Positions 35,507-55,194 of a stretch of DNA of 64,000 nucleotides are shown one piece after another. This DNA is from Stenotrophomonas maltophilia (GTDB lineage Bacteria > Pseudomonadota > Gammaproteobacteria > Xanthomonadales > Xanthomonadaceae), in the NCBI RefSeq assembly GCF_039555535.1, contig NZ_CP154630.1, positions 3,485,001 through 3,549,000 on the forward strand, written 5' to 3'. How positions within the stretch are numbered: the stretch's first letter is position 1; each line of letters starts with the position of its first letter. Below the pieces are notes generated by a model. That model worked only from the letters and a program-made list of their open reading frames with translations, was not told the DNA's origin and did not search any database. Both the position numbers and the translations under genes were made by a program.

Positions 35507-35887
35507 TTAGCCCTGCCCCATCGCGGCTCGTAGCTCTTCCAGGCGCTCGGCGATCTTGGCGCCGGAAAGCTTGCCGCCCCCAGCGCCGCGGACATCCTTG
35601 ACCATGGCCAGCGAAACGACCGAGGCGCGCAGGAGGTCGTTCTTGTTGCGATCCAGAGCCTGCCAGTCGTCTGGCAACGCAGTGAGCGCAGCCGTGGCCT
35701 CTTTGCCGGAGAGGTATTGGACGCAGTTCAACGGCGACCAGGCCAGGCCGATCTCATTGACCAGCAAGCTGCGCAACTCGCGCTCGCCGCTCTTGCCTTC
35801 GGCCAGGTTCAGCACCGCGTGCGCGGCGACGATGGCCTTCTGCTGGGGGGACAACTTCGCGCTGGGCCAGTTTGTGGTGCGGGCCAT
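35507..35887 (-). CDS. Hypothetical protein in the SRAP operon
   Basis: A 126-residue helical protein whose ATG (35887) overlaps the SRAP stop (TGATG). It contains LSPQQKAIVAAHAVLNLAEG and a Gly-rich stretch (DVRGAGGGKLSGAKIAERLE). No family is recognised. Tight coupling to an SRAP gene suggests a joint role, which is inferred. Confidence 0.6.
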   Translation of the reverse strand: MARTTNWPSAKLSPQQKAIVAAHAVLNLAEGKSGERELRSLLVNEIGLAWSPLNCVQYLSGKEATAALTALPDDWQALDRNKNDLLRASVVSLAMVKDVRGAGGGKLSGAKIAERLEELRAAMGQG

Positions 35888-39059: not shown

Positions 39060-39229
39060 AACCGCTTTGCAGTGCTCCCTCCGCCGTTCCACGGCTGGAG
39101 GGAGCTCGCAACGACGGGCCCCGGAGCCCGTTCAGGGAAATACTAATAGCGGGGCTTCGAGCGCGGTCGTAGCCTGATCCCCCGGTGGCTGTCTCACCGG
39201 GTGATCCAGACTCCCCGGAGACTCGCGCC

Positions 39230-39682
39230 ATGTTCGATCCCGCCCCTCCTACGCTTCTCGGTGCCGCTGACCTGCACGCCGAGCCGATGCCGCTCCCTCA
39301 CCTGGGCTTCCGCGTGACGTGCGGCTTCCCCAGTCCTGCAGAGGACTACATGGGCGAAGTGCTGGACATCAACCAGCGCGTGATCAGCAACCCGGTGGTG
39401 ACCTTCTTTGCGACGGCGGAGGGTGATTCGATGGAAGGTCTCGGCATCGAGGCCGGCGACACGCTCGTCATCGACAAGTCGCTGGAACCCAAGCACCTGG
39501 ACATCGTGATGGTGAACTGGGATGGCGGCTTCATGGTCAAGCAGCTGCGCCGCCGCGGCGGGCGCCTGGAGCTTCATTCCGGCGACCCGGCTACCAATCC
39601 GCCGATCCTGGTGGGCGATGACCAGGAGCTGGACGTTTGGGGCGTGGTGACCTGGAGCTTCCGTAAGCAGTTGAGGCGTTAG
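39230..39682 (+). CDS. umuD: UmuD-type SOS regulator of translesion polymerase
   Basis: A 150-residue protein from the ATG at 39230. It has the Cys31-Gly32 self-cleavage site (RVTCGFPSPAEDY), the catalytic Ser67 in GDSMEG and Lys104 in FMVKQL, as in UmuD and LexA-like S24 peptidases. The cleaved form activates UmuC. A good LexA box is not seen; ATACTAAT at ~39140 could be a half site of a Xanthomonas-type box. A minus-strand gene separates it from umuC. Confidence 0.9.
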   Translation: MFDPAPPTLLGAADLHAEPMPLPHLGFRVTCGFPSPAEDYMGEVLDINQRVISNPVVTFFATAEGDSMEGLGIEAGDTLVIDKSLEPKHLDIVMVNWDGGFMVKQLRRRGGRLELHSGDPATNPPILVGDDQELDVWGVVTWSFRKQLRR

Positions 39683-39966
39683 AAGACATCCGGGGGCGCA
39701 TCAGCACTCTCCTCATAAAGGTTCGCAAGCTGTGCCATGAGTCTCTTGTTCTGAAGTTCATCTCGGAGAGGTTGCAGCTTGCCGAGAACGTATTTCCACT
39801 CCTGCTCACCCATCATTGAATCGCCCAGTTTCGCAAGCGCCCATTCTAAGCTTCCGGGCTTCAGATTGACCCACGGTGACGACTTCTTAGATTTGACGAT
39901 AAAGGGTTGCAACTCGCCCTTCACCGTTGCGACTGAATCAATGTTCGCCCGACTCTCATCCATCAC
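39679..39966 (-). CDS. Antisense hypothetical gene between umuD and umuC
   Basis: A 95-residue protein on the minus strand that overlaps the umuD stop by 4 bp and starts 14 bp from the umuC start. It is soluble and charged (ELQPFIVKSKKSSPWVNLKP, then GSLEWALAKLGDSMMGEQEW). No family is recognised. Its position breaks the usual umuDC operon, which means umuC needs its own promoter in the overlapping region or a read-through transcript with antisense pairing. Confidence 0.55.
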   Translation of the reverse strand: MMDESRANIDSVATVKGELQPFIVKSKKSSPWVNLKPGSLEWALAKLGDSMMGEQEWKYVLGKLQPLRDELQNKRLMAQLANLYEESADAPPDVF

Positions 39967-39979
39967 TCCTCACCTCCAT

Positions 39980-41242
39980 ATGCTCGGCCTTGTTGACGGA
40001 AACAACTTCTACGCCTCTTGCGAACGGGTTTTCAATCCGTCGCTGCGCGGGCGCCCGGTCGTCGTGTTGTCCAACAACGACGGCTGCGCCATCGCGCGGT
40101 CGCAGGAAGCCAAGGACCTGGGCGTGGGCATGGGCCAGCCCATCCACGAAGTCCCGCCAGAGGTGCGCCGGCAGCTGAAAGTGTTGTCGGCCAACTTCGG
40201 GCTATACGGCGACTTGAGCGGGCGCGTGGTGTCGATCCTGCGGGACCTGTTCCCCCAAGTGGAGGTCTACTCCATCGACGAGAGTTTCGTGTCCTTCGAT
40301 GGCATCCCGGAAGCCGAGCACGAGCGCGTCGCTGCTGAGGCACGGGCACGGATTCTGAAGTGGACGGGCATTCCCTGCTGCGTCGGCATCGGCCCAACGA
40401 AAACGTTGGCCAAGTTGGGCAACAAGGCCGCCAAGAAGACACCGCACGGGGTCATGATCGCCCTGCCCGGTTCCTCATTGCTGGAGCGGTTCGAGGTCGA
40501 GGATGTGTGGGGCGTGGGCCATCGCACCCGCGCCAAGCTCGACGTGGAAGGCATCCTCACGGCCGCTGATCTGGCGCGTGCTGATCCAGAAACGGTGCGG
40601 GCGCGCTACGGCGTGACCCTGGCCCGCACCCAGCGCGAGCTTCAGGGCATCGCGTGCTCGGGGTTGGAAGAGGTCGAGCCGGACCGGCAGCAGATCGTTG
40701 TGTCACGGTCGTTCGGGAAAGAGGTCGTGGCGCTGGAAGACCTGCAGCAAGCGGTGGCCACCTTCGCGCAGCGGGCCTGCGAAAAGCTGCGCGCTCGCAC
40801 GCTCCAGGCCGGCGGGGTCTGGGTGTTTCTCCATACCAACCCGTTCAAACCGGGCGCCCCGCAATACCACCCCAGCAAAGCATTCAACTTCGTGGCGCCC
40901 ACCGTGGACACACGCGAGGTGCTAATGGTCGTTCAAGGGCTGACCAAAGCGATGTGGCGCCAGGGCCACCGCTACAAGAAAGCCGGCATCGGCTTGCTGG
41001 ACCTGACGGCGGGCGATGTCCACCAGGGTGATTTGTTCGCCCAGGTGGATCCGCGTTCGAAGGCCCTCATGGAGGTGATGGATCGGGCCAATGCCAAGTT
41101 TGGCCGCGGGTCGATGGCGTTTGCCTCGTCGGCCAAGCGGGTGCGCGGTGGAGAGCAGCGCAAGCAGGTCTGGGCCATGAACCAGGCGGCGTTGTCACCG
41201 GCCTACACGACTCGGTGGGATCAACTTGTCAGGGTGAGATAG
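39980..41242 (+). CDS. umuC: UmuC-type Y-family translesion DNA polymerase
   Basis: A 420-residue protein from the ATG at 39980 (MLGLVDGNNFYASCERVFNP). The palm carboxylates are present: Asp in LVDGNNFYASCE and the pair in YSIDESF (~residue 100). The thumb/finger regions include IPCCVGIGPTKTLAKLGNKA and VWGVGHRTRAKLD (HhH). The C-terminal little-finger domain is followed by the DLFAQVD region, similar to the clamp-binding end. It copies damaged DNA with UmuD'. All catalytic residues are kept. Confidence 0.92.
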   Translation: MLGLVDGNNFYASCERVFNPSLRGRPVVVLSNNDGCAIARSQEAKDLGVGMGQPIHEVPPEVRRQLKVLSANFGLYGDLSGRVVSILRDLFPQVEVYSIDESFVSFDGIPEAEHERVAAEARARILKWTGIPCCVGIGPTKTLAKLGNKAAKKTPHGVMIALPGSSLLERFEVEDVWGVGHRTRAKLDVEGILTAADLARADPETVRARYGVTLARTQRELQGIACSGLEEVEPDRQQIVVSRSFGKEVVALEDLQQAVATFAQRACEKLRARTLQAGGVWVFLHTNPFKPGAPQYHPSKAFNFVAPTVDTREVLMVVQGLTKAMWRQGHRYKKAGIGLLDLTAGDVHQGDLFAQVDPRSKALMEVMDRANAKFGRGSMAFASSAKRVRGGEQRKQVWAMNQAALSPAYTTRWDQLVRVR

Positions 41243-41257
41243 CGCACGTTAGTGCGC
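41242..41257. terminator. Hairpin shared by umuC and OLD gene ends
   Basis: GCGCAC and GTGCGC arms around GTTA sit exactly over the two converging stop codons. A weak bidirectional terminator, as no T-run follows. Confidence 0.45.
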
Positions 41258-43000
41258 CAGCCAATCCACAAGCTCTCGCACACCTGCAGCATCTGCACAA
41301 ACCGCATCTACCCCGTCGTTCTCAAGCATCACTTGGAATGTCAGCCAGGCATGCTCCTTCTTTTCGGTCAGCCCGACATGAGGCTCGATTGCTCCTCGGC
41401 TCCATAGCCAAATCGATTTATCCCGAAGCTTTTGAACAAGTGCCTGGATGTGAGGTGCCGCTTCCGCACGCTCGGCCAGCAGCTCAAAAGCTTTCGAAGC
41501 TGAGCCTTGGGGACCCTTCTGAGGTAGGCCGCCGCTATCCAGCGCGATCAGACCGTCATCCGCCATTGCTCTCAATGTCACCTTGCAGGCAGCGAGGTCA
41601 ACATCGTCTGCGTCAAGGAAACCATGCTTGGATGCCTGCCGAAATGCATAGTCCAGGTCCACAATCGCGCACGCGGGGAGTCCAAGAGCCTCCAGGATTT
41701 CCATAGATTTCTGAGTGTCTGAGACCCCGCTCATTGCAATGATTGCGAGCGAAGACTGCGCCATCGTCTTTCCAGAGACCGCGTTGAAGAGGCTGGGTAG
41801 CAACCGCAACTCAGTCTTTCCCTCAGTCAGGATCACCCTGTCAGCGAACAGCATCTGGGAAGAGTTCGTCAGACTGAAGATCTGATGGAGCTGATGCGTA
41901 GGCTCGGCAACCAGTTGCACGACAACCGATTCAAGCCTCGGCCGTGCCTGTGTTCCTTGAGGATGCTTCTTGGTCATCAACAAAGCATTTTTCGCATCTC
42001 GCGCGAGAATCATTTGAGCAGAATGGGTTGAAAAAACAACCTGATAGCCTGCTACTGAAAGGGCCCGCAATGCTTCGCGAACCTGCTCAACAGCAAAGGG
42101 ATGCATGAACAGCTCGGGCTCATCAATCAGCAGAAGCGTCACGCCACCCGCCACGGCGACACCTCGCTTGAGGTCAGCAAGATGACGCACCATTGCCATT
42201 TGGATGGCGCGCTGCGCGCCATGTCCATAGGAACCGAACGCCCTACCTTTTCCGTCTCCCTCATAGACTTTGACGGTTCCAGCTTTGATGAGATCGTTCA
42301 ACACGGGGACAGGGAAATCCAGTTTTATGCTCACTCCAGGGAAGAGGTCTGAAATCTTCTGATTGATGGAGGCATCAATCCGCCCCAGCTCCTCAAATCG
42401 CTCAGCCCCCTCTGCGGACAGCATTCCTACGATTGCTGAAAGATGCGGCGATAGATCGGCCTCATGTTGCTCCTGGATAGCGGCGAGCATGTTGGCTAGC
42501 AGCTTGCCTATCGTCGTGGTTGTCTTTGCCTTACTGGCGTCTTCTTCGGCATTCTCCATTGCCCCGATGCGTATCGGCTCAGGGAACAACGCTGAAATGG
42601 CTTGATCAATGCCGGTTGGGTTTGGATCCCATTCGTTGCTGTCTGGATTGAGAACGGTGAGCGACACCTCTCCGCCTGGCACTTGTTGCTCTCTCCGAAC
42701 AATCAATACTCCATCGCGCACGTGCGGCTCAATCCTCCTCCTATGCTTGGGATCCAGCGTCGCAAGATCCTCTTCAGCGATGCCGTAGAGGCGCCCCACC
42801 ACTTCAATGGGAAGAAGAGGGTCATGGAAATCCTCCTCCCCCAACTTTGCCTTTCTGACCAGCCATTGCAACGCGGTCAGGCAGTTGCTTTTACCGCAGT
42901 TGTTCAACCCAACCAGCGGCGTGAACTCAGTCAACTGCAACTGCGTAGAGACGCACGACCGAAAGTTGCGAATATCCAACTCTGAAATATAGACAGCCAT
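41249..43000 (-). CDS. OLD-family ATPase/TOPRIM nuclease
   Basis: A 583-residue protein. The N-terminal ABC-type ATPase has Walker A GLNNCGKSN (~31-39), a signature region near GSYGHGAQRAIQ, Walker B LLLIDEPELF and the H-loop STHSAQM. The C-terminal TOPRIM nuclease has ILTEGKTELRLLP (catalytic Glu) and IVDLDYAF (D-x-D). This is the class of P2 Old and the GajA subunit of Gabija, which nick or cut phage DNA. It lies 26 bp after the type III res gene on the same strand. No UvrD-like GajB partner follows, so this is not Gabija. Confidence 0.88.
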   Translation of the reverse strand: MAVYISELDIRNFRSCVSTQLQLTEFTPLVGLNNCGKSNCLTALQWLVRKAKLGEEDFHDPLLPIEVVGRLYGIAEEDLATLDPKHRRRIEPHVRDGVLIVRREQQVPGGEVSLTVLNPDSNEWDPNPTGIDQAISALFPEPIRIGAMENAEEDASKAKTTTTIGKLLANMLAAIQEQHEADLSPHLSAIVGMLSAEGAERFEELGRIDASINQKISDLFPGVSIKLDFPVPVLNDLIKAGTVKVYEGDGKGRAFGSYGHGAQRAIQMAMVRHLADLKRGVAVAGGVTLLLIDEPELFMHPFAVEQVREALRALSVAGYQVVFSTHSAQMILARDAKNALLMTKKHPQGTQARPRLESVVVQLVAEPTHQLHQIFSLTNSSQMLFADRVILTEGKTELRLLPSLFNAVSGKTMAQSSLAIIAMSGVSDTQKSMEILEALGLPACAIVDLDYAFRQASKHGFLDADDVDLAACKVTLRAMADDGLIALDSGGLPQKGPQGSASKAFELLAERAEAAPHIQALVQKLRDKSIWLWSRGAIEPHVGLTEKKEHAWLTFQVMLENDGVDAVCADAAGVRELVDWLAH

Positions 43001-43026
43001 TCCCTTGCCCCCCTGTTATGAAGTCA

Positions 43027-45669
43027 CTACCCGATGGCTGCCCTCAGTTGCTCGGTCACGCTATTGCCCTTCTCGTCCTTCAGCTGGGCCATGAGGTAGA
43101 TCCCCCTGCCCTTGCTCTTGGTGGCCCAGAGCTCCCCGATCATGCGCTTCTCCTTCTCGGAGTCGGCCGTGTAGCGGTCGCCGCCCTTGTATTCAACGAC
43201 CAACAGACGCCCATCCTTTAGCCGAGCGACAAAGTCCGGGTAGGTCCGCTGCTTGGACGTCGGCATCCAGAACTGGCTCTTGTCCACCAAGTTGCGGACC
43301 CAGAACTCCACCTCGTCCAGCTGATCGATGGCCTGGGCGCAGAGGAACTCCTCGCCCACTTTGCCCCCGGCGGTCTTCCATTGAAGATCGCCCACGAAGG
43401 GGTAGTAGTGCTTGCGGAAGCGATACGTGCCGCCTTGGTAGTAAGAATGCGCTGGATACTGGGTCATGTCCGCCGGATAGGTGAACATGGCATCGGGCTC
43501 GTCGCTGACCACGATCTCTGCGTCGGCACCAAACAGGGCCTGCTGGAAGCCATCCTTGAGTGCTTCTGCCTTGGCGATCTGGAGCTGTTCGCCGAGCTTC
43601 CGTCGGAGCACGAACTGGCCATTGAGCAGTTGCGATAGCGAGAAGCCCCGATCTTCGGACAGCCCGCTGATGGACCGGCGCAACCACTCCCGCAGCACGG
43701 GCTGCTTGACCGCAGGATCGCGGATCTTCTGGTCCAGCCAGCCGACCAAGTCCGCTTGAGTGCGGTCCTTGGCGAAGCCAGGCAAGTAGGTATTTACGTC
43801 GTCGTCGATCGGCGTGTAGCTGACCTTCTCGTCCACCAAATCGACTTCAAAGGTTTTGCTGTCCGCGTTGAACTTGAGGCTGGTCAGGTCCGGGGGATAG
43901 GCCAGCAAGTCCCAGGTGAAGCCCGGCGGCGTGGCGCCGCTCTCCACGAACTCCAGCTCGTCCTGCTCCATGACCCCGAGCCGGGGCACGCTGAACACCG
44001 CGCCGTTCTGGCTAGGGGCTTTGACGGCCTTGGCGGCGATCTGGTGCCGCTGGATTGTAGCCGCCGCTTCCTCGCGCTCCTTGGTTGGCACAGCCTTGGT
44101 GATCGCTTCCACGGTGGACTCGTCCACCTCGCCCGTGATCTCCACCGAGCCGCCCTTGCCTTCCTCGTTCGGAGTGAATACAACGCTGGCCTGGTCCCGA
44201 GCAGCGATGCCGGTAAGATCAGGCTGTTTGCTCACAGCAATGGTGGCCCTGGGCGTCACGGGCACCGGATTGACCTTGCCGCCTTGCAAGTCCAAGCCGG
44301 GCCCAGGTGTGGGATCCGGCAGCACCGCCCCCACGGCCTCCAGAGGGTTGAACCCGATGTCGATGAGCGACTTGGTGAGCTCTGCGGCAGCCAGATTGAA
44401 CGCCGCAGTGGTGACGTGCGCGTAGGCCCTGTTCATGGCCTCCTGCTTGCGGCGGGTGGCATACGGCATGCGCAGCACGCGCCCCAGCAGCTGCTGGATG
44501 TCCTTGTCGCTCTTGACCTGGGCCACCGAGCAGAAGACGTAGGCAAAGGAGCAATCCCACCCTTCCTTGAGCGCTTGCTTGGTGATGATGACCTCGATGG
44601 GGCAGTCCTTGGCGAACAGGTCCACCCCGTCGATCTCCCGCTGATCGCCCGTGGCGATGGCAATCGCCTTCTCGGGCACCTTCTCGTTGTCGATGAGGTG
44701 CTTCTTGACCTCCTCGACCGTGGCGGTGCCTTTGGCGTTCTCGGCTTGGATGAGCAGGATCGGCCGGATGTAGTCCGGCTCGCCCAGCGCGGTCTTGCCC
44801 AGTTCGTTGCGGCGGGCCACGGCGCTACCCACGGCGACTTCCCACTGCCCGACGTGCTCCTTGAGCACGACTGGGAACTTGATCATGTCCGCGCCCTTGA
44901 GCTCAAAGGCACTGACGCTGACCAGCACGTTGCTCTTACTGGCTTCCGGCGTGGCCGTGAGCTCCACCACGACCTTGGCACCCAGGCGCTCGTAAACCTG
45001 GTAGGACAAGGGCGTGTTGGCATTGTGGGCTTCGTCGGTGATGACCAACGGACCGTGAAGTTTCAGCAGATTGGCAAAGGACGCGATGGCCTTTCCCGCC
45101 TTGTTCTGCTCCAAGTAGGGCAAATCGGACACGCTGCCGGCGAAATGGGGCTCTAGGTCCTCGTGGTGCTCATAGACCTTGCGCCCCTCCTGGTTCTCCA
45201 CGCGCAGGGCCGCCATGGTCGAAATGACCACGCACACCTTGGTTCCCAGATCAGCGGGGCGGAGGTGAGTGAAGTCCTCCACATCGAACACGGCGACCTT
45301 GCCCCCAAATGCCTCGTCCAGCTCCTGACGGTAAGGATGGCGGGGGTTCTTGAAGGCCTCCAGCGTCTGGGTCTTGATCTGGGTGGTGGGGACCATCCAC
45401 ATGACCAGCGGGAACTCGCGCTCGAGGTAGGCGTCGCCCGCCGCCTGGATGATGTGCGCGCCCATGACCGTTTTACCGCCGCCCGTCGGAATGCGTAGGC
45501 ACACGTAGGGCGAGGCCTCCAGATGAGGCATGGGTTTGTATTGGGTGACCAGACCGGCATCCACGTTCTTCTCAAACGCGGATGCGGGGCCGGTCAGCCG
45601 GGCGTCGTCGAGGAACTGGGCCAGGCTGGACAAGGCCCGTTGCTGATACACCTTGAGGGAAAGAGCCAT
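43027..45669 (-). CDS. res: Type III restriction enzyme, Res subunit
   Basis: An 880-residue protein from the ATG at 45669, 2 bp after the mod stop. Superfamily 2 helicase motifs: I (PTGGGKT, ~61-67), II (ITDEAHNAN), III (ELTATPEAS), then GWDC and QQLLGRVLRMP for motif VI. The C-terminal PD-(D/E)XK nuclease has YPDFVARLKDGRLLVVEYKG with the D...ExK residues. It cuts DNA after translocation when two unmethylated sites meet. It acts with Mod. Length matches the EcoP15I class (~970) within normal variation. Confidence 0.9.
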   Translation of the reverse strand: MALSLKVYQQRALSSLAQFLDDARLTGPASAFEKNVDAGLVTQYKPMPHLEASPYVCLRIPTGGGKTVMGAHIIQAAGDAYLEREFPLVMWMVPTTQIKTQTLEAFKNPRHPYRQELDEAFGGKVAVFDVEDFTHLRPADLGTKVCVVISTMAALRVENQEGRKVYEHHEDLEPHFAGSVSDLPYLEQNKAGKAIASFANLLKLHGPLVITDEAHNANTPLSYQVYERLGAKVVVELTATPEASKSNVLVSVSAFELKGADMIKFPVVLKEHVGQWEVAVGSAVARRNELGKTALGEPDYIRPILLIQAENAKGTATVEEVKKHLIDNEKVPEKAIAIATGDQREIDGVDLFAKDCPIEVIITKQALKEGWDCSFAYVFCSVAQVKSDKDIQQLLGRVLRMPYATRRKQEAMNRAYAHVTTAAFNLAAAELTKSLIDIGFNPLEAVGAVLPDPTPGPGLDLQGGKVNPVPVTPRATIAVSKQPDLTGIAARDQASVVFTPNEEGKGGSVEITGEVDESTVEAITKAVPTKEREEAAATIQRHQIAAKAVKAPSQNGAVFSVPRLGVMEQDELEFVESGATPPGFTWDLLAYPPDLTSLKFNADSKTFEVDLVDEKVSYTPIDDDVNTYLPGFAKDRTQADLVGWLDQKIRDPAVKQPVLREWLRRSISGLSEDRGFSLSQLLNGQFVLRRKLGEQLQIAKAEALKDGFQQALFGADAEIVVSDEPDAMFTYPADMTQYPAHSYYQGGTYRFRKHYYPFVGDLQWKTAGGKVGEEFLCAQAIDQLDEVEFWVRNLVDKSQFWMPTSKQRTYPDFVARLKDGRLLVVEYKGGDRYTADSEKEKRMIGELWATKSKGRGIYLMAQLKDEKGNSVTEQLRAAIG

Positions 45670-45671
45670 GC

Positions 45672-47189
45672 TTAGCGTGCCTTGATGTCGTAGGGGGTCT
45701 GTTTGAAGGTGATCTGGAGCTCCTCCAACCGCTCCTTCGGCAAGTCGCAAGACTCCCCGTAGATCACCTTGGGCCCGTCAAAGGGCTGCAGGCCTTTCAA
45801 CACCCGCTTGGTCAGCACGTTGCCGCCGGTCTTGCTCTCATCGCCCAAAATGCCGTTGAACAGAAGGTAATAGCCAATCCCATGGTGCTCGCCTAGGAAC
45901 GGCTGCTTGGGAGCACGGGTGGAGCGTGCCGTCCCGGTTTCGGCGAACCAGACATGCGCGGCCAAGTGTTCGAACTTGATGCCCTCGCGGATGTGGCCCG
46001 CATCATCGAACACGGGCACACCGAGCTTGTAGAAGCGGAAACCACCGCCGCCTTTCCAATCCACCGCCTCGGAAATCCCTCCTGCTTCACCGTCCACTAC
46101 TTGCTTCAACCGTGGCTGGCAATGCGTGCGGGCATGCTCGCCCATTTCAACACCAATCCACCGCCGCCCCATCTTCTGCGCAACTGCTGCAGTAGTCCCA
46201 GAACCAAGGTAGCTATCAAGAACCAGATCTCCAGGTTTAGTGGCTATCTCCAGAACACGCTTGAGCAACTTCTCGGGCTTGGGCGTTGCGAATACACCTT
46301 CCCCAAAAAGCAAAACACTCTCTTTCTTTGCATCCTGGGTGTGACCCACTTCCTCCCATGACCAGAAGGTTTGAGGAACACGTCCCTGTTTGACTTCCGA
46401 CAGGAACCGCTTCAGAGCAGGCACATTGTTACCGTCCTTCCCCCACCAGATGCGGTTGTCCTTATCCAAGTCATCCATCTTGGCCTTCGAGATAGCCCAG
46501 TAGCGACCTTTGGGAGGCCCCGAAATCTCGCGACCGCCTGGTGTTGTCAATCCGTATTGCCCGAGACTATAGGGGTTACGAGCAGTCAAGTTGTCAGGTC
46601 GCCAAGCGCCTCTCGGATCGTTGTCCGGATTCTTGTAGATTTTGTCTTGGCTATCACTTCGCTCGACTAAGTTTGGAACCCACTTAGTTGCTTGCTTCCC
46701 GTAGACCAACATGTGGTCATGATCAACAGAAAAATGCCTTGCAGAGCTTTTTGGGGCGTAGTTCTTCCGCCAGATCAGGTTGGCGATGAAGTTCTTTCGT
46801 CCGAAAACTTCATCCGCAATCACCTTAAGGTAATGGGCTTCATTGTCATCCAGGGTGATCCAAAGGGATCCATCCTCTGAGAGCAGTTCACGAAGCAGCT
46901 CGAGCCGCGGATACATCATCGACAGCCACTGAGAGTGCTCGATGTTATCGTCGTATTGTTCGAAGGCGCTCTTGGTGTTGTAGGGCGGATCGATAAAGAT
47001 GCACCTCACCTGCCCTGCGTAGTAAGGCAGCAGGGCCTTCAAAGCATCCAAATTGTCGCCTTCGATCAGCATGTTCGGAGAGTCGACCTCCCCATAGGAC
47101 AAGCTGGCCACCGGCTCCAAGAGCCGGTAGGGCGTCAGGGCGGAGCGGGTCAGGTCCTCATCACGGTCGGACCAGTTGAGCAGTGGCAT
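45672..47189 (-). CDS. mod: Type III restriction system, Mod DNA methyltransferase
   Basis: A 505-residue protein from the ATG at 47189, 9 bp after GAGGGG (an ATG three codons upstream is possible). The adenine-N6 methylase motif DPPYNTKS (motif IV) precedes DSYLGSGTT (motif I), the beta-class order of Mod subunits. Target recognition is in the middle part (WRKNYAPKSSARHFSVDHDH onward). The recognition domain has lower GC than res (AT-rich stretch 46.2-47.0 kb), a usual sign of domain exchange. Forms the methylase and specificity part with Res. Confidence 0.9.
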   Translation of the reverse strand: MPLLNWSDRDEDLTRSALTPYRLLEPVASLSYGEVDSPNMLIEGDNLDALKALLPYYAGQVRCIFIDPPYNTKSAFEQYDDNIEHSQWLSMMYPRLELLRELLSEDGSLWITLDDNEAHYLKVIADEVFGRKNFIANLIWRKNYAPKSSARHFSVDHDHMLVYGKQATKWVPNLVERSDSQDKIYKNPDNDPRGAWRPDNLTARNPYSLGQYGLTTPGGREISGPPKGRYWAISKAKMDDLDKDNRIWWGKDGNNVPALKRFLSEVKQGRVPQTFWSWEEVGHTQDAKKESVLLFGEGVFATPKPEKLLKRVLEIATKPGDLVLDSYLGSGTTAAVAQKMGRRWIGVEMGEHARTHCQPRLKQVVDGEAGGISEAVDWKGGGGFRFYKLGVPVFDDAGHIREGIKFEHLAAHVWFAETGTARSTRAPKQPFLGEHHGIGYYLLFNGILGDESKTGGNVLTKRVLKGLQPFDGPKVIYGESCDLPKERLEELQITFKQTPYDIKAR

Positions 47190-47323
47190 CGAATACATCC
47201 CCTCGAACAGGCTCCAAGTATCGTTCACCGGGTGCGTTTCGGCCAATACTGGGGAATCAAGCCACTTGCAAGCCATTGATAAAAATGACGTTTTGGAGAT
47301 AAGCGAAAGAACAGGTAGAGGCT

Positions 47324-47926
47324 CTACCGTTGCCGCGCTCCCTTGCGCCACTCCCATGGCGTCGTGAACTCGCCGGCCCAAACGCCGGCACGCCCGGCTT
47401 GCGCCACTTCCTCTGCAGCCACGTAGTCCGTCGAATACTGGCGGTAGGCCAGTGCCCAGCCATTTAGCACCAACCAAGCCTGGACGTCTTCCGTGCCGGC
47501 AAAACAACGCGCCAACGTGCGCTGATAGCGGTCCGTGCCAGTGGGGTTACACGAAACAGTGCGGGAACCCAGCCAATCGCTCAACGCGAAGGCAGCCTTT
47601 TGGCCACATGGCCACTCCTCGCCTGCCGGACCACACTTCTGCTTGGATTCCGGGGCATCCACTCCGGCCAATCGTATACGCACACCGTGGATCTCGATTG
47701 TGTCTCCATCGATGACAGAGCTTCGCCCTACAATCAGACTGGGCGCTTGGCCGCCGGGCTTAGGCGAACGAACTTCTTCATGCACTTGAGCAATCTGGTC
47801 ATTGCCCTTCCACCAGACTGACGCCTTCTTCAAGCCGGTGAGGGCAGCAGCCAGAAGAACCGCAGTGCCGATAACCTGAATGAATCGCTTTCCATTGGAG
47901 TGGATCGTGACCTTCTGGCTCATCAT
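47324..47926 (-). CDS. Membrane-anchored thermonuclease (SNase-like)
   Basis: A 200-residue protein with an N-terminal membrane anchor (FIQVIGTAVLLAAALTGL, residues ~15-32) and an SNase domain from ~residue 65: SSVIDGDTIEIHGVRIRLAG, then VDAPESKQKCGPAGEEWPCG, DRYQRTLARCF and AWLVLNGWALAYRQYS. The catalytic Asp, Arg and Glu positions (DGDT, R in VRIRLAG, E in APES, R in YQRTL) are present. It lies between a tail-anchored protein (adjacent) and mod, 134 bp downstream. Confidence 0.85.
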   Translation of the reverse strand: MMSQKVTIHSNGKRFIQVIGTAVLLAAALTGLKKASVWWKGNDQIAQVHEEVRSPKPGGQAPSLIVGRSSVIDGDTIEIHGVRIRLAGVDAPESKQKCGPAGEEWPCGQKAAFALSDWLGSRTVSCNPTGTDRYQRTLARCFAGTEDVQAWLVLNGWALAYRQYSTDYVAAEEVAQAGRAGVWAGEFTTPWEWRKGARQR

Positions 47927-48310
47927 TCAACGGGAAAATAAAACAAAGAAGATGATTGCGATGACCACCATGCCAACCAACATCAGCTTGTTGCTTCCCT
48001 TGGTGACCGTAACCTTTGTCTCTCCGCTGGCGGTTCTGTGGGTGCTCGTGAGGGTGAAGTCCTCCTTCCCCTTCCCCAACTCCCGTGCCGTGTCAATGTC
48101 CCTTGCAATGCCCACGTTTGCAGCTGCATGACGACGGCGCATGTCTTCATCGCTGCTCTCACGCTCAATGAGCGTCTCAAGAGCCTTTCCTGCGTATTTC
48201 TGCCGCTGCTCGGGCGTCATCTGGCTGACCAGCTCACGTGTCAAGCTGGAGCCTCCTCCCGTCCCGTCAAGTTGAATACCGTTGTCGCGCTTAGACAGTT
48301 CATTACTCAT
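47927..48310 (-). CDS. Tail-anchored membrane protein
   Basis: A 127-residue protein whose stop immediately precedes the thermonuclease ATG. The N-terminus is polar with a charged helix (LTRELVSQMTPEQRQKYAGK). The middle is Arg/Asp-rich (IERESSDEDMRRRHAAANVG). The C-terminus is a single hydrophobic helix (LMLVGMVVIAIIFFVLFSR) with the typical tail-anchor ending. It starts 3 bp after the upstream gene. No family is recognised. Confidence 0.65.
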   Translation of the reverse strand: MSNELSKRDNGIQLDGTGGGSSLTRELVSQMTPEQRQKYAGKALETLIERESSDEDMRRRHAAANVGIARDIDTARELGKGKEDFTLTSTHRTASGETKVTVTKGSNKLMLVGMVVIAIIFFVLFSR

Positions 48311-48313
48311 AGA

Positions 48314-49027
48314 TCACCCCAGCCATCTCTTTAGTTTTGCCCATGCCGAGACCTTCGGCTTGACGATTTGAACTCGGATCGTCCCCTGCGGGAGCTCAAT
48401 AGTGTGCTCAACCGATGTGTGGTGATCCCCCAACTGTCCCAGCAGCTCCTCGATTCGTTGAAACTCGCTCTTCAGGTAGGAAAGCCGACCAATCGACTCG
48501 TCCTTGATCGCTGCAGACAGCATCTTCTCCGCCGCTTCCGTGTCGCCATCCGCCAGCCAAGACAAACGCTGTTTCATATCCTCGGAAAGGTTCGCCGTCT
48601 CTCCATGCTTGACCACCTCCTCAATCACAGGAAGGAGAGCATCGATCCATTGCTCTGGGGAAGTCCCCACATACCGGCTCATTTTCCTAAAACTTGCCTG
48701 CCGCAACTTCTTGACCAGCTCAAACCTAACGTCGTATGGCAGTAAGGGCGGCAACAGGTTCAAAAGCCGCTCTGCCACCTCGCCACTCATTCGAACACTG
48801 CCGCTCTTCCATTTGGGATACGTCTTGCGAGCATAGTTCCCAGCAGACGCGCCGAACTCCTCCGCGTAGAACTCAAACAGATCATCAAGTTCATCGCGGT
48901 CCAGCGACAAGAAGAGGCGCTCCACATCTCGGTCGATACCACCGAAGGTCGAGCTCAGCTTTTGCCGCTTCGAAACAACGTAGCCCGCATAACTCCGTCG
49001 CCGATACTTGGATCTATATCGTCCCAC
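48314..49027 (-). CDS. Hypothetical protein heading the thermonuclease operon
   Basis: A 237-residue protein from a GTG start at 49027, 6 bp after GGGAGGACGC (reading from 49129 is also open but lacks a site). The N-terminus is basic (GRYRSKYRRRSYAGYVVSKR), then acidic helices (RDVERLFLSLDRDELDDLFE) and YARKTYPKWKSGSVRMSGEV, RFELVKKLRQASFRKMSRYV. The end is hydrophobic and basic (RVQIVKPKVSAWAKLKRWLG). No family is recognised. Its tight linkage to a tail-anchored protein and a membrane nuclease suggests one system. Confidence 0.65.
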   Translation of the reverse strand: MGRYRSKYRRRSYAGYVVSKRQKLSSTFGGIDRDVERLFLSLDRDELDDLFEFYAEEFGASAGNYARKTYPKWKSGSVRMSGEVAERLLNLLPPLLPYDVRFELVKKLRQASFRKMSRYVGTSPEQWIDALLPVIEEVVKHGETANLSEDMKQRLSWLADGDTEAAEKMLSAAIKDESIGRLSYLKSEFQRIEELLGQLGDHHTSVEHTIELPQGTIRVQIVKPKVSAWAKLKRWLG

Positions 49028-49382: not shown

Positions 49383-49865
49383 TTACTTTGCGTCGAAGCC
49401 GGTCACGCGGCAGAAGCGGTAGACCGCCGAACTGCTCACCCCAAGCTCCCGCGCCAACTGAGCCCTGCTGACCGTCATCAAGCGGCCCCGAACCTGTTCC
49501 AGGCTCAGCCCCCGCAAGGTGCGGTGCTCCGGCCCTTTCAGGACACGCCCCAATCGAAGCGCTTGGCGGTCCAGGCCGATGGTGGCCGGCGACACGCCCA
49601 AGCGCTGGGCCACCTCGGCCGAGGTTAGCCCGGCTTGGACCAGCCGCTCCACCTGCTGGCGGCGCTCGATGAGCTCGCGGGTTTGGCGAGCCCGGAACGC
49701 CTGCCGCCCAGAACCGGCCAGGCCATGCCGCCGGACAAAGCGGTTCACGGCTTGGTGGGTAACGCCCAGGCGTTGGGCCAAGGCGCGCTGAGTCACCCCT
49801 TCGTCCAGCGAAGATTGAACCTGGGCCGGGGATCGTCCGCCGAGGAAGCCTTTGCGTGGGATCAT
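49383..49865 (-). CDS. Protein with repeated helix-turn-helix units
   Basis: A 160-residue protein whose ATG (49865) overlaps the upstream stop (ATGA). Three HTH-like segments: QRALAQRLGVTHQAVNRFVR, SAEVAQRLGVSPATIGLDRQ and RAQLARELGVSSSAVYRFCR. Each has the A-x-x-L/R-GVS-x-x-x-V/I pattern of resolvase/sigma-type HTH. No catalytic domain. It shares unit style (LSLEQVRGRLMT) with the larger neighbour, so both likely came from the same ancestor. Probable multi-site DNA binder. Confidence 0.65.
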   Translation of the reverse strand: MIPRKGFLGGRSPAQVQSSLDEGVTQRALAQRLGVTHQAVNRFVRRHGLAGSGRQAFRARQTRELIERRQQVERLVQAGLTSAEVAQRLGVSPATIGLDRQALRLGRVLKGPEHRTLRGLSLEQVRGRLMTVSRAQLARELGVSSSAVYRFCRVTGFDAK

Positions 49866-50977
49866 GATGGAGTGGCCTGACGACGTCGCCCATCGCGCGG
49901 CGCTTTGAGACCTGCTCTTTTCATGTAAACAGATATAGACGACGCGCTGACCCCAAGATGCAGAGCCACAGCGTTGGCCGTCTGGAATCGGGCGAGCAGG
50001 ATCTCGACCTCTGCTCGACTCAAGCCCGAGAGGGTCATTTTCTCCGCCGGTTTACGCATGCCCGGAAGCTTCAGCGGTTTGCGGTCGATCGATGGTGTAG
50101 TGGCCTGGCGGCATCGCCCGTCCCGTGGCGCTTTGAGGCCGGCTCTCTTCATGTAAGAGGACACATGCGCCCCACTGGTTCCGAGATGCAAAGCCACTGC
50201 CTTGATGGTCTGGAATCGAGCAAGAAGGGCCTCTATCTCTGCTCGACTCAAGCCCAAGAGGGTCATTTTCTCTGCCGGCAGACGCACACGCGGCAGCTTC
50301 AGCGCTTGGCGGTCGGCCGTTATGCATGCGTATGGCACAGCCAACTGTTGCGCCATTTCAGACACCGATAGGCCGGCCTCGCTCAACCGGCGCACCTCTT
50401 TGCGCCGAGCCAGAACAACCGCCTTCTTTCCGTTTTGCGGCATGTCCAGTTCGTATTTCTTGCAAAACAGGCTAACCGCTTGCTGCGTGACGCCGATCCG
50501 AGCCGCCACACGGGTGCGGGTGCCCAGTTCGTGGAGCAGGCTCAGCACCTCCTCGACCGAGTGCCCTGCAATGCTCCTCGGTTGTCGTTGGCAGACCGGC
50601 AACCGCAGTCCAAGGGCTTTGGCATCGCTCTGCAAGGTGTAGACAGCCATCCCTAGGAACCTTGCGATGTTCTGTCGTTCCATGCCGGCTTGAATGCAGG
50701 CGCGGACCGCATAGCGGCGTTGGCTCACATAAGCCCGGTAGCGCTCCGAGGGCATGGCATCCGCAGGATCCACACGCTGGGCGCGCTCGATTTGCTCCGG
50801 TTCGCCGTGTGCGTTGCGGTGCGCGGCCAGGGCGTCGTCCACGTCCTTGCTGAAAGGCGTGTTGCGTTGGGCTGCGTCGTAGAGGGCCTGGATGTCCGCG
50901 GGCATGGGCAGGAGTTCGATGCCGTCCGGCCCGGGAAGAACGCCTGGGGCAAACAAGGTGGAAGGCTCGCGTGTCAT
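49862..50977 (-). CDS. Multi-HTH protein with a tandem internal duplication
   Basis: A 371-residue protein, ATG overlapping the upstream stop (ATGA). After an N-terminal ~75-residue acidic part, helix-turn-helix units appear: QNIARFLGMAVYTLQSDAKA, RTRVAARIGVTQQAVSLFCK, SVSEMAQQLAVPYACITADR, and two near-identical units (AEKMTLLGLSRAEIEALLAR, FQTIKAVALHLGTSGAHVSS). The last two are products of a 228-bp duplication. Each repeat ends YMKRAGLKAPRDGR. No catalytic domain is visible. It may bind an array of sites, such as the element's own iterons. Confidence 0.65.
   Translation of the reverse strand: MTREPSTLFAPGVLPGPDGIELLPMPADIQALYDAAQRNTPFSKDVDDALAAHRNAHGEPEQIERAQRVDPADAMPSERYRAYVSQRRYAVRACIQAGMERQNIARFLGMAVYTLQSDAKALGLRLPVCQRQPRSIAGHSVEEVLSLLHELGTRTRVAARIGVTQQAVSLFCKKYELDMPQNGKKAVVLARRKEVRRLSEAGLSVSEMAQQLAVPYACITADRQALKLPRVRLPAEKMTLLGLSRAEIEALLARFQTIKAVALHLGTSGAHVSSYMKRAGLKAPRDGRCRQATTPSIDRKPLKLPGMRKPAEKMTLSGLSRAEVEILLARFQTANAVALHLGVSASSISVYMKRAGLKAPRDGRRRQATPS
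49872..50327 (-). repeat. 228-bp tandem duplication within the multi-HTH gene
   Basis: Bases from 49872 and from 50100 align at a period of exactly 228 bp (76 codons), both starting GTGGCCTG and carrying GCTCGACTCAAGCCC and GAGGGTCATTTTCTC. The copies differ at scattered positions, so the duplication is not very recent, and frame is kept. Confidence 0.75.
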
Positions 50978-54180: not shown

Positions 54181-55194
54181 TTAAGCAACCTGGCGTTCCT
54201 TGCGTCGCGATGGGGACCTTCGACCGGCTTCCGTCTTTCGCCCCTGCTCCATGTCCTTCTCCTTCTTGACCTGGGGCAGCGGCTCGCGTTCAAACGCCGG
54301 GATGTCCAAAAAGGTCATGACCTTCTCCGCTTGGCTGGCTGCGCGGAACAGGGTCCTGGGGTCGTCGGCCAGAGCTTTCATCCAGGACTGCAGGTAGGCA
54401 GCGTGTTGCTCTTCGTGCTCCTTGCCCAGGGCAATCCCCAGTCGCTCGGAAATGAACAAACTTGAGAGCTCGGCTACCAGCTCCTCTTTGGCGTAGTCCT
54501 GGCTGCCGAACCGACCGGTCTGGTCGCGGTCGAGCCGGTGCTTCGCCCCAGTCCAATGTGCCAGTTCGTGGAGCACGGTTGACGCATAACTAATCGGATC
54601 TTGAAAGCTGCCGGCTTTCGGAACGTGGATGCTGTCGGTAGCAACGGAGTAGAAGGCCCTGTTCCCGCCATCGTGATGAAGTTTTGGCTGGTGCTTGTCC
54701 AACAACTCTCGCAGACGCAGGTTGCGGATCGACTCGGGCATGATGAAGGGCTGCGGGGGCTCGGGCATGCCATCCATTTGGCTGGCATTGAACACCGTGG
54801 CGACGAACACCGATGGCCCTTGGTATCCGTTCTTCTCTTTGCCCTCGGTCAACGGCTCAGCCCCGTCTTTGGCCTTGCCCGTCTTGCTGAAGTCCCAGTA
54901 AGCGATCTGCTGGCCCTTTTCGCCGCGCTTGACTTGGGCCCCAATGCTTTCTGCCTGCCGATAGGTCAGCCAGCGGTCGTCTCGGTAGCCGCGGGTGAGT
55001 TGGGCACGGCGCAAGATGAGTGTGTTGCTGCCGCGATAAGCCTTGCCCGTGGTCGGGTTCCAGGGCCCGTTGATCGCGCCGTTCTGCGGGGCATCGGGAT
55101 CGTTCCATGGGCGGCGCCAGGGGATGGTGCCCTGCTTCATCAAGTCGAGCATGCGCCGGGTTTCGGTTTGGATGAGATCGGAATACTTGGACAT
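54181..55194 (-). CDS. ardC: ArdC-type antirestriction protein / zincin
   Basis: A 337-residue protein. Residues ~1-130 form the ssDNA-binding ArdC N-terminal domain (PWNDPDAPQNGAINGPWNPT, then GKAYRGSNTLILRRAQLTRG and RWLTYRQAESIGAQVKRGEK). Residues ~170-300 form the zinc metallopeptidase-like domain with HELAHWTG (zinc ligands His209 and His213) and EELVAELSSLF with the third ligand Glu. ArdC proteins protect incoming single-stranded plasmid DNA from host restriction during conjugation. The C-terminus has an Arg/Lys-rich tail. It is an early-transfer gene by position. Confidence 0.92.
   Translation of the reverse strand: MSKYSDLIQTETRRMLDLMKQGTIPWRRPWNDPDAPQNGAINGPWNPTTGKAYRGSNTLILRRAQLTRGYRDDRWLTYRQAESIGAQVKRGEKGQQIAYWDFSKTGKAKDGAEPLTEGKEKNGYQGPSVFVATVFNASQMDGMPEPPQPFIMPESIRNLRLRELLDKHQPKLHHDGGNRAFYSVATDSIHVPKAGSFQDPISYASTVLHELAHWTGAKHRLDRDQTGRFGSQDYAKEELVAELSSLFISERLGIALGKEHEEQHAAYLQSWMKALADDPRTLFRAASQAEKVMTFLDIPAFEREPLPQVKKEKDMEQGRKTEAGRRSPSRRKERQVA

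Follow-up and report, generated by a model that had tools for sequence, protein, structure and literature searches.

A 64,000-nucleotide stretch of the Stenotrophomonas maltophilia genome (contig NZ_CP154630.1, positions 3,485,001 to 3,549,000; hereafter the window, lying in a single-contig genome of 4.83 Mb) contains six consecutive minus-strand genes that a first-pass annotation, made from the sequence alone, had taken for one composite nuclease cluster. Comparison with other genomes leads us to read them, with about even confidence, as two separate cassettes: a mod-res operon of type III restriction-modification (R-M) that ends in a gene for a nuclease of the phage P2 Old type and, as an insertion beside it, a module of three genes (U237, TA and SNase; hereafter the triplet) that would probably cleave phage DNA at the inner membrane, with Old as an optional second line. 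The observations behind this reading are the gene content itself, a triplet-free version of the site in two genomes of the same genus, fusions of U237 to TA, and a third gene of the module that encodes either a staphylococcal nuclease (SNase) or a protein of the PD-(D/E)XK fold.

Open reading frame (ORF), domain and hydropathy checks reproduced exactly the gene kinds, order and gaps first annotated for the six leftward genes: U237, TA, SNase, Mod, Res and Old, separated by 3, 0, 134, 2 and 26 bp, respectively. U237 (48314-49027, GTG start, 237 residues) belongs to an unknown family, TA (47927-48310, 127 residues) has a predicted C-terminal membrane anchor and a T-A/G-S-G motif, and SNase (47324-47926, 200 residues) is of the staphylococcal-nuclease type with a predicted N-terminal membrane anchor. 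Mod (45672-47189, 505 residues from the ATG that reproduces the 134-bp gap) is a type III adenine methyltransferase subunit, Res (43027-45669, 880 residues) a type III restriction subunit with a helicase and a PD...E-x-K endonuclease, and Old (41249-43000, 583 residues) an ATPase-TOPRIM nuclease of the phage P2 Old subfamily. The G+C contents of Old, U237 and TA are 0.546-0.549 (Old 0.546), as compared with 0.628 for Res and 0.612 for the window. A promoter scan of the six-gene region gave zero matches, and a terminator scan gave six sites versus 6.9 in shuffled sequences, one of them a weak stem-loop at the SNase stop codon (47314-47328, minus strand) that represents no excess over shuffles; neither scan marked transcript borders within the six genes.

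The mod-res pair is apparently intact. Mod matches N6_N4_Mtase (PF01555) and the PADLOC model MTase_III (637 bits) and carries the motifs DPPY and GSGT, and Res matches ResIII (PF04851) and REase_III (594 bits) and carries GGGKT, DEAH and PD...EYK, such that methyltransferase, helicase and nuclease motifs lie side by side as in type III systems. Enzymes of this type are Mod-Res complexes that recognize an asymmetric site and require two sites for cleavage. Mod is 58% identical to its counterpart in the same-genus genome G277 versus 97% for Res, as if the target-recognition part had been swapped.

Old combines an AAA_15 domain with an OLD-like TOPRIM domain (PF20469), scores 772 bits against the PADLOC Old model and contains the motifs GLNNCGKS, DEPE, STHS, TEGKTE and DLD. 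Among named proteins it is closest to phage P2 Old, which it matches from end to end with 37% identity (587 columns), and its closest named relatives on the Old tree are from Lysobacteraceae. Among 297 genomes of the family, Res (at least 42% identity) was found in 21, the Old subfamily (more than 650 bits) in seven and both in three, and in all three the genes are adjacent (hypergeometric p = 0.009 with kinship ignored). We read 20 of the 21 Res loci; L172 was left out and, like L185, yielded no ORF for Res. In three of those read, res is followed by Old (the window, L041 and L042) and in three others by the Shedu nuclease SduA (L167 with 615 bits, L168 with 596 bits and L169, which is 92% identical to L168), whereas L170 has a 493-residue protein without a family and L166 a 108-residue ORF in this position; the remaining loci read showed no convincing partner there. 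Because Old and SduA each occupy this slot in only 3 of 20 loci, Old appears to be an optional accessory and not a core subunit, and from these comparisons we take mod-res-Old to be a type III R-M variant in which a P2-type Old is optional. A gene with an Abi_C domain comes next after SduA in L168 and some 0.9 kb beyond res in L176.

When genome contigs were scanned and the 80 best loci of 184 Old relatives kept, the association proved to include other restriction types. Old directly adjoins R-M genes in 10 of the 80 loci (type III in six, type I in four), a count that is a lower bound because the profiles were seeded from few genes and contigs were often short. In four of the type III-linked loci the order is mod-res-Old (L053, L054, L059 and L100), in L094 it is mod-Old with a res-type gene two ORFs further, and in L119 it is Old-mod-res. 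In the type I-linked loci (L079, L081, L085 and L098) Old lies ahead of hsdR, as confirmed with Pfam in L079, the only locus in which HsdS could be confirmed in this way because the iterated HsdS model also recruited HsdM ORFs. The ORF caller used for the Old and Res loci is greedy and yields spurious ORFs, and three pairs of loci (L039/L087, L040/L056 and L042/L059) apparently represent one place each, sampled twice; L053, although titled Opitutae, carries an Old identical to that of G277 and is probably a misbinned contig. On the Old tree the type III-linked rows fall in four places, with L100 and L119 on long branches, and the xanthomonad clade has mod-res in 5 of its 10 rows; we use only the tree shape, as the group test omits 67 unlabelled rows and reports one change per group among the labelled ones. 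In another xanthomonad (L051, genome G059) a distant OLD protein is encoded between hsdS-like and hsdR-like genes, and the type I link therefore extends beyond the P2 Old subfamily. The annotated placement of an OLD gene directly after res thus recurs elsewhere, whereas the suggestion that Old is a fixed third subunit does not agree with its presence after res in 3 of 20 Res loci and next to R-M genes in 10 of the 80 loci of its own subfamily.

It is possible that Old, like SduA, stands behind res merely through the gathering of defence genes at the same places and works alone, unlinked to restriction, an explanation to which we give somewhat less than an even chance. Several observations favour it and count against a functional link. 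The profiles used detected no R-M gene directly next to Old in 70 of the 80 loci, Old is absent from 17 of the 20 Res loci read, the co-occurrence of Res and Old in the family rests on three genomes, two of them at the same site, and the G+C content of Old is below that of Res. In addition, L055 (Stenotrophomonas sepilia) is 97.5% identical to L054 across Old and the gene downstream of it, yet all that precedes Old there is a broken end of res. This suggests that mod-res was lost and Old left behind, loss being distinguishable from gain here solely through the res remnant. Against chance gathering, in all 10 adjacent loci Old and the R-M genes share a strand and lie -21 to 38 bp apart, including one arrangement with Old between hsdS and hsdR, the type III link occurs in four separate places on the tree, and Old is found with several restriction types.

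If Old is instead linked to restriction, as we favour, it may act as an optional second line behind it. Restriction would expose DNA ends to RecBCD, and a phage that blocks RecBCD or restriction itself would trigger Old at the cell's expense, much as P2 Old kills recBC-minus cells (PMC10568477). Since restriction makes ends that RecBCD degrades, an Old encoded behind res could penalize phages that interfere with this degradation, and a backup role of this kind is plausible.

Several further features of the Old loci were observed. A umuDC-like pair (Peptidase_S24 and IMS genes; 39185-41242, plus strand) converges on Old in the window, with about 6 bp between the stop codons. The genome that contains the window has a second, distant OLD gene (L045, G000:C1:4267949-4269448, 294 bits to the Old model), within 20 kb of which there was no Mod or Res match. 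One protein cluster, another recurrent Old partner, provides the next gene in 6 of the 80 Old loci (L074, L090, L103, L105, L130 and L131); the member scanned, from L130, combines an nSTAND3 with an Mrr domain and is recognized by the PADLOC model PDC-S73. In L100 (Lewinellaceae) mod-res-Old is followed after 1 bp by a uracil-DNA-glycosylase-like gene and then, after 13 bp, by a GmrSD-type gene. In six xanthomonad-type loci (L039, L054, L055, L057, L058 and L087) Old is followed, mostly with overlapping or nearly touching ends, by an unknown protein of about 250-290 residues that is absent in the window and gave no Pfam or PADLOC match among the members scanned.

The same site in two genomes of the genus lacks the triplet. 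In G071 (L166) two helix-turn-helix (HTH) genes are followed by about 145 bp and then mod-res, with neither triplet nor Old, and in G277 (L041) they are followed by about 140 bp and then mod-res-Old. In the window, 2.2 kb (49410-47247) replaces the approximately 145 bp of the triplet-free site. The left edge of this segment is marked by two HTH-repeat genes (49383-49865 and 49862-50977, minus strand), which lie outside both cassettes and on whose side the window, L166, L041 and L053 are alike up to 49410. The right edge is marked by the mod leader (47190-47292, minus strand), which is common to triplet-free relatives in the flank alignments with L166, L041 and L053. Because about 100 bp upstream of mod is conserved in all of these flanks, mod probably retains its own upstream signals. 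U237 was not found in 12 other genomes of the genus that were searched, and within the phylum one genome of 398, that of the window itself, gave a match. Together, the flank alignments indicate that the triplet is an insertion next to the mod-res operon. Identity between G071 and the window stops within the last res codons and resumes at 35887, and the segment with Old and umuDC therefore constitutes a second difference between them. About 5 kb from the cassettes, the window also encodes an ArdC-type anti-restriction protein (54181-55194, minus strand; ArdcN and zincin domains) in a segment that is collinear with G071, which places R-M and an anti-restriction gene in one mobile-looking region.

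Outside this site, U237 occurs in the company of TA and of more than one type of nuclease. A protein search returned 62 homologues of U237 (five with an ncbi source tag), among which the seven with at least 331 residues are fusions with a TA-type protein at the C terminus. We read as DNA the window and seven further distinct places (L133/L134, L186, L192, L193, L194, L204 and L205), L133 and L134 being one phage-like sequence from two samples (100% identical over 6554 bp) in which, as seen in L134, the module is followed after 130 bp by a tape measure gene. Two of the places are on plasmids, of Vibrio harveyi (L186, with TA and no adjacent nuclease) and Thioalkalivibrio (L204, with neither adjacent); L192, L193 and L194 came from a search centred on a Verrucomicrobiota genome (hits in 3 of 387) and L205 from one around a Bacteroidota genome (1 of 153). 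A search centred on Planctomycetota gave 1 of 154, a 21-bit match in G1133 that was discarded after L206 was read. TA is adjacent to, near or fused to U237 in seven of the eight distinct loci, L204 being the exception, and a nuclease is present in five: an SNase in the window, L193 and L205 and a PD-(D/E)XK-fold protein in L134 and L192. The gene orders seen were U237-TA-nuclease, SNase-U237-TA and TA-86aa-U237. The third gene of L134 was tested for the PD-(D/E)XK superfamily fold and has it; in 31 sequences of its family D101, E110 and Q123 are invariant and E-V-D/E replaces E-x-K. Homologues of U237 and of this protein share the longest-contig values 2104, 4812 and 8006 versus about 0.4 such matches expected, which is a hint only. 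Mod, Res and Old matches at E 0.001 were found in none of the other U237 loci (0 of 8 loci, representing seven distinct places). We take these comparisons to indicate that U237, TA and a nuclease of variable type form a conserved module that extends to other phyla. Shared longest-contig values were also seen between U237 and Old homologues (10515 and 2857, again a hint only), and records P0149 (U237) and P0009 (Old), each with a longest contig of 10515 bp, possibly represent the same contig.

At the protein level, searches of Pfam, PADLOC, NCBIfam and PHROGs at E 0.001 returned no model for U237 or TA. The structure model of U237 (predicted local distance difference test score, pLDDT, of 82) is mostly helical with a C-terminal strand pair, and a search with it for similar folds gave no match; its N-terminal tail is basic. 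The U237 of L194 bears an N-terminal WYL domain, the sole model match among the U237 and TA proteins scanned. Remote-homology comparisons link U237 to those of L193 (E 1e-15), L194 (E 5e-10) and L205 (E 1e-6), SNase to those of L193 (8e-11) and L205 (9e-16) and TA to that of L205 (HHalign E 2e-12), and TA aligns with both its fused and its separate relatives. SNase matches PF00565 (55.5 bits) and shares the stretches DGDT, RLAGVDAPE and DRYQR with the SNases of L193 and L205. Hydropathy is high in residues 108-126 of TA (mean 2.66) and 15-33 of SNase (mean 1.74).

Fusions and neighbourhood suggest that U237 and TA act together, and the two presumably control the nuclease. By analogy, the likeliest role of the triplet is a split version of the membrane nuclease defence SNIPE. 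The nuclease would be anchored, TA would be its membrane partner and U237 a sensor or binder; together, U237 and TA might form a membrane-bound sensor or scaffold that holds the anchored nuclease in check until phage DNA entry frees it, the logic of SNIPE being divided among three proteins.

Alternatively, the triplet might have a role in the envelope, for instance in DNA uptake, in scavenging or in the control of extracellular DNA, which we consider unlikely. SNase proteins are common (at least 5000 records in the plasmid search) and no defence library searched models U237 or TA, as might be expected of such a function. Other points weigh against a SNIPE-like defence, the first of which also favours an envelope role. 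The L205 SNase, judged by eye, has a secreted look with a C-terminal anchor and thus appears extracytoplasmic, whereas the charges flanking 35 N-terminal anchors tend to favour a nuclease in the cytoplasm; the evidence on the nuclease's side of the membrane is thus contradictory. In three of the eight U237 loci no nuclease was found beside U237 (L186, L204 and L194, the last on a contig that stops 570 bp past TA), the customary E-x-K lysine is not in place in the PD-(D/E)XK-fold family, and a Pfam scan of the triplet for the DUF4041 domain of SNIPE found no likeness to it in U237 or TA and only the SNase domain. An envelope role, however, does not fit well with the rare and patchy occurrence of the triplet described above, with the occurrence of triplet or U237 modules as cargo (beside R-M genes, on plasmids and in a phage-like contig) or with the variation of nuclease type while U237-TA is retained.

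A type III enzyme of three subunits, or one operon of all six genes, as the common direction and short gaps of the six genes might suggest, is largely refuted by genome comparison and is very improbable, given the same-genus mod-res loci without triplet and Old (G071) or with Old and without the triplet (G277) and the lack of Mod, Res or Old matches in the other U237 loci. Of the first-pass interpretation as a whole, the exclusion of Gabija, the recurrence of Old after res and the reading of the first three genes as a separate nuclease module are thus supported by these comparisons; the third subunit and the single cluster are not.

With less than even confidence, we go further and propose a new anti-phage system in which U237, a sensor of unrecognised fold, and its tail-anchored partner would form a membrane platform for interchangeable anchored nucleases (SNase or PD-(D/E)XK) in bacteria and phages that cut entering DNA, together with P2-Old-type nucleases as recurring, exchangeable second-line effectors of type I and type III restriction operons against blockers of RecBCD or restriction. 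If the triplet is a defence system, the cutting of DNA at its entry point, as shown for SNIPE, would have arisen a second time, out of different components and with exchangeable nucleases, and a testable role would emerge for U237 and TA. Class 1 OLD genes have been viewed as isolated, yet one of them, or a Shedu nuclease in its place, is found repeatedly in restriction operons, and natural mod-res loci that differ in their third gene offer a direct test of whether backup nucleases sense anti-restriction or anti-RecBCD proteins.

Among known systems, type III R-M shares with the window the Mod and Res families, their order, 2-bp spacing and motifs, and differs by the Old gene after res, a slot that in relatives holds Old or SduA. 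P2 Old, a Class 1 OLD nuclease, has the same ATPase and TOPRIM motifs. Genes of this class, P2 Old included, are described as single and isolated (PMC6755086, PMC10568477), and isolation is the criterion for the class in PMC6755086, whereas Old in the window lies 26 bp behind res; lambda is reported to evade P2 Old through loss of red functions including gam (PMC12407980). The GajA protein of Gabija is likewise an OLD nuclease, with weak similarity (best PADLOC GajA match 90 bits versus 772 for Old), but GajB, a UvrD-like helicase, is absent beside Old, the neighbours of which are the ResIII gene and the IMS (UmuC-type) gene, in agreement with the first annotation that this is not Gabija. The OLD/TOPRIM and Shedu nucleases of BREX loci have been proposed as backup (PMC12839542) and likewise stand beside a modification-based system, which here is instead type III or type I R-M, with a P2-type Old in which ATPase and TOPRIM are fused. 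In SNIPE, as described in PMC13190303, a cytoplasmic nuclease is fixed to the inner membrane and restrained until phage DNA crosses. The triplet likewise has a membrane-anchored nuclease, and the same action is proposed for it here. SNIPE is one protein, with DUF4041 and GIY-YIG, and the triplet three genes, with an SNase or PD-(D/E)XK fold; what would be new here are thus U237 and TA, found in none of the libraries searched, with SNIPE as the precedent for their presumed action.

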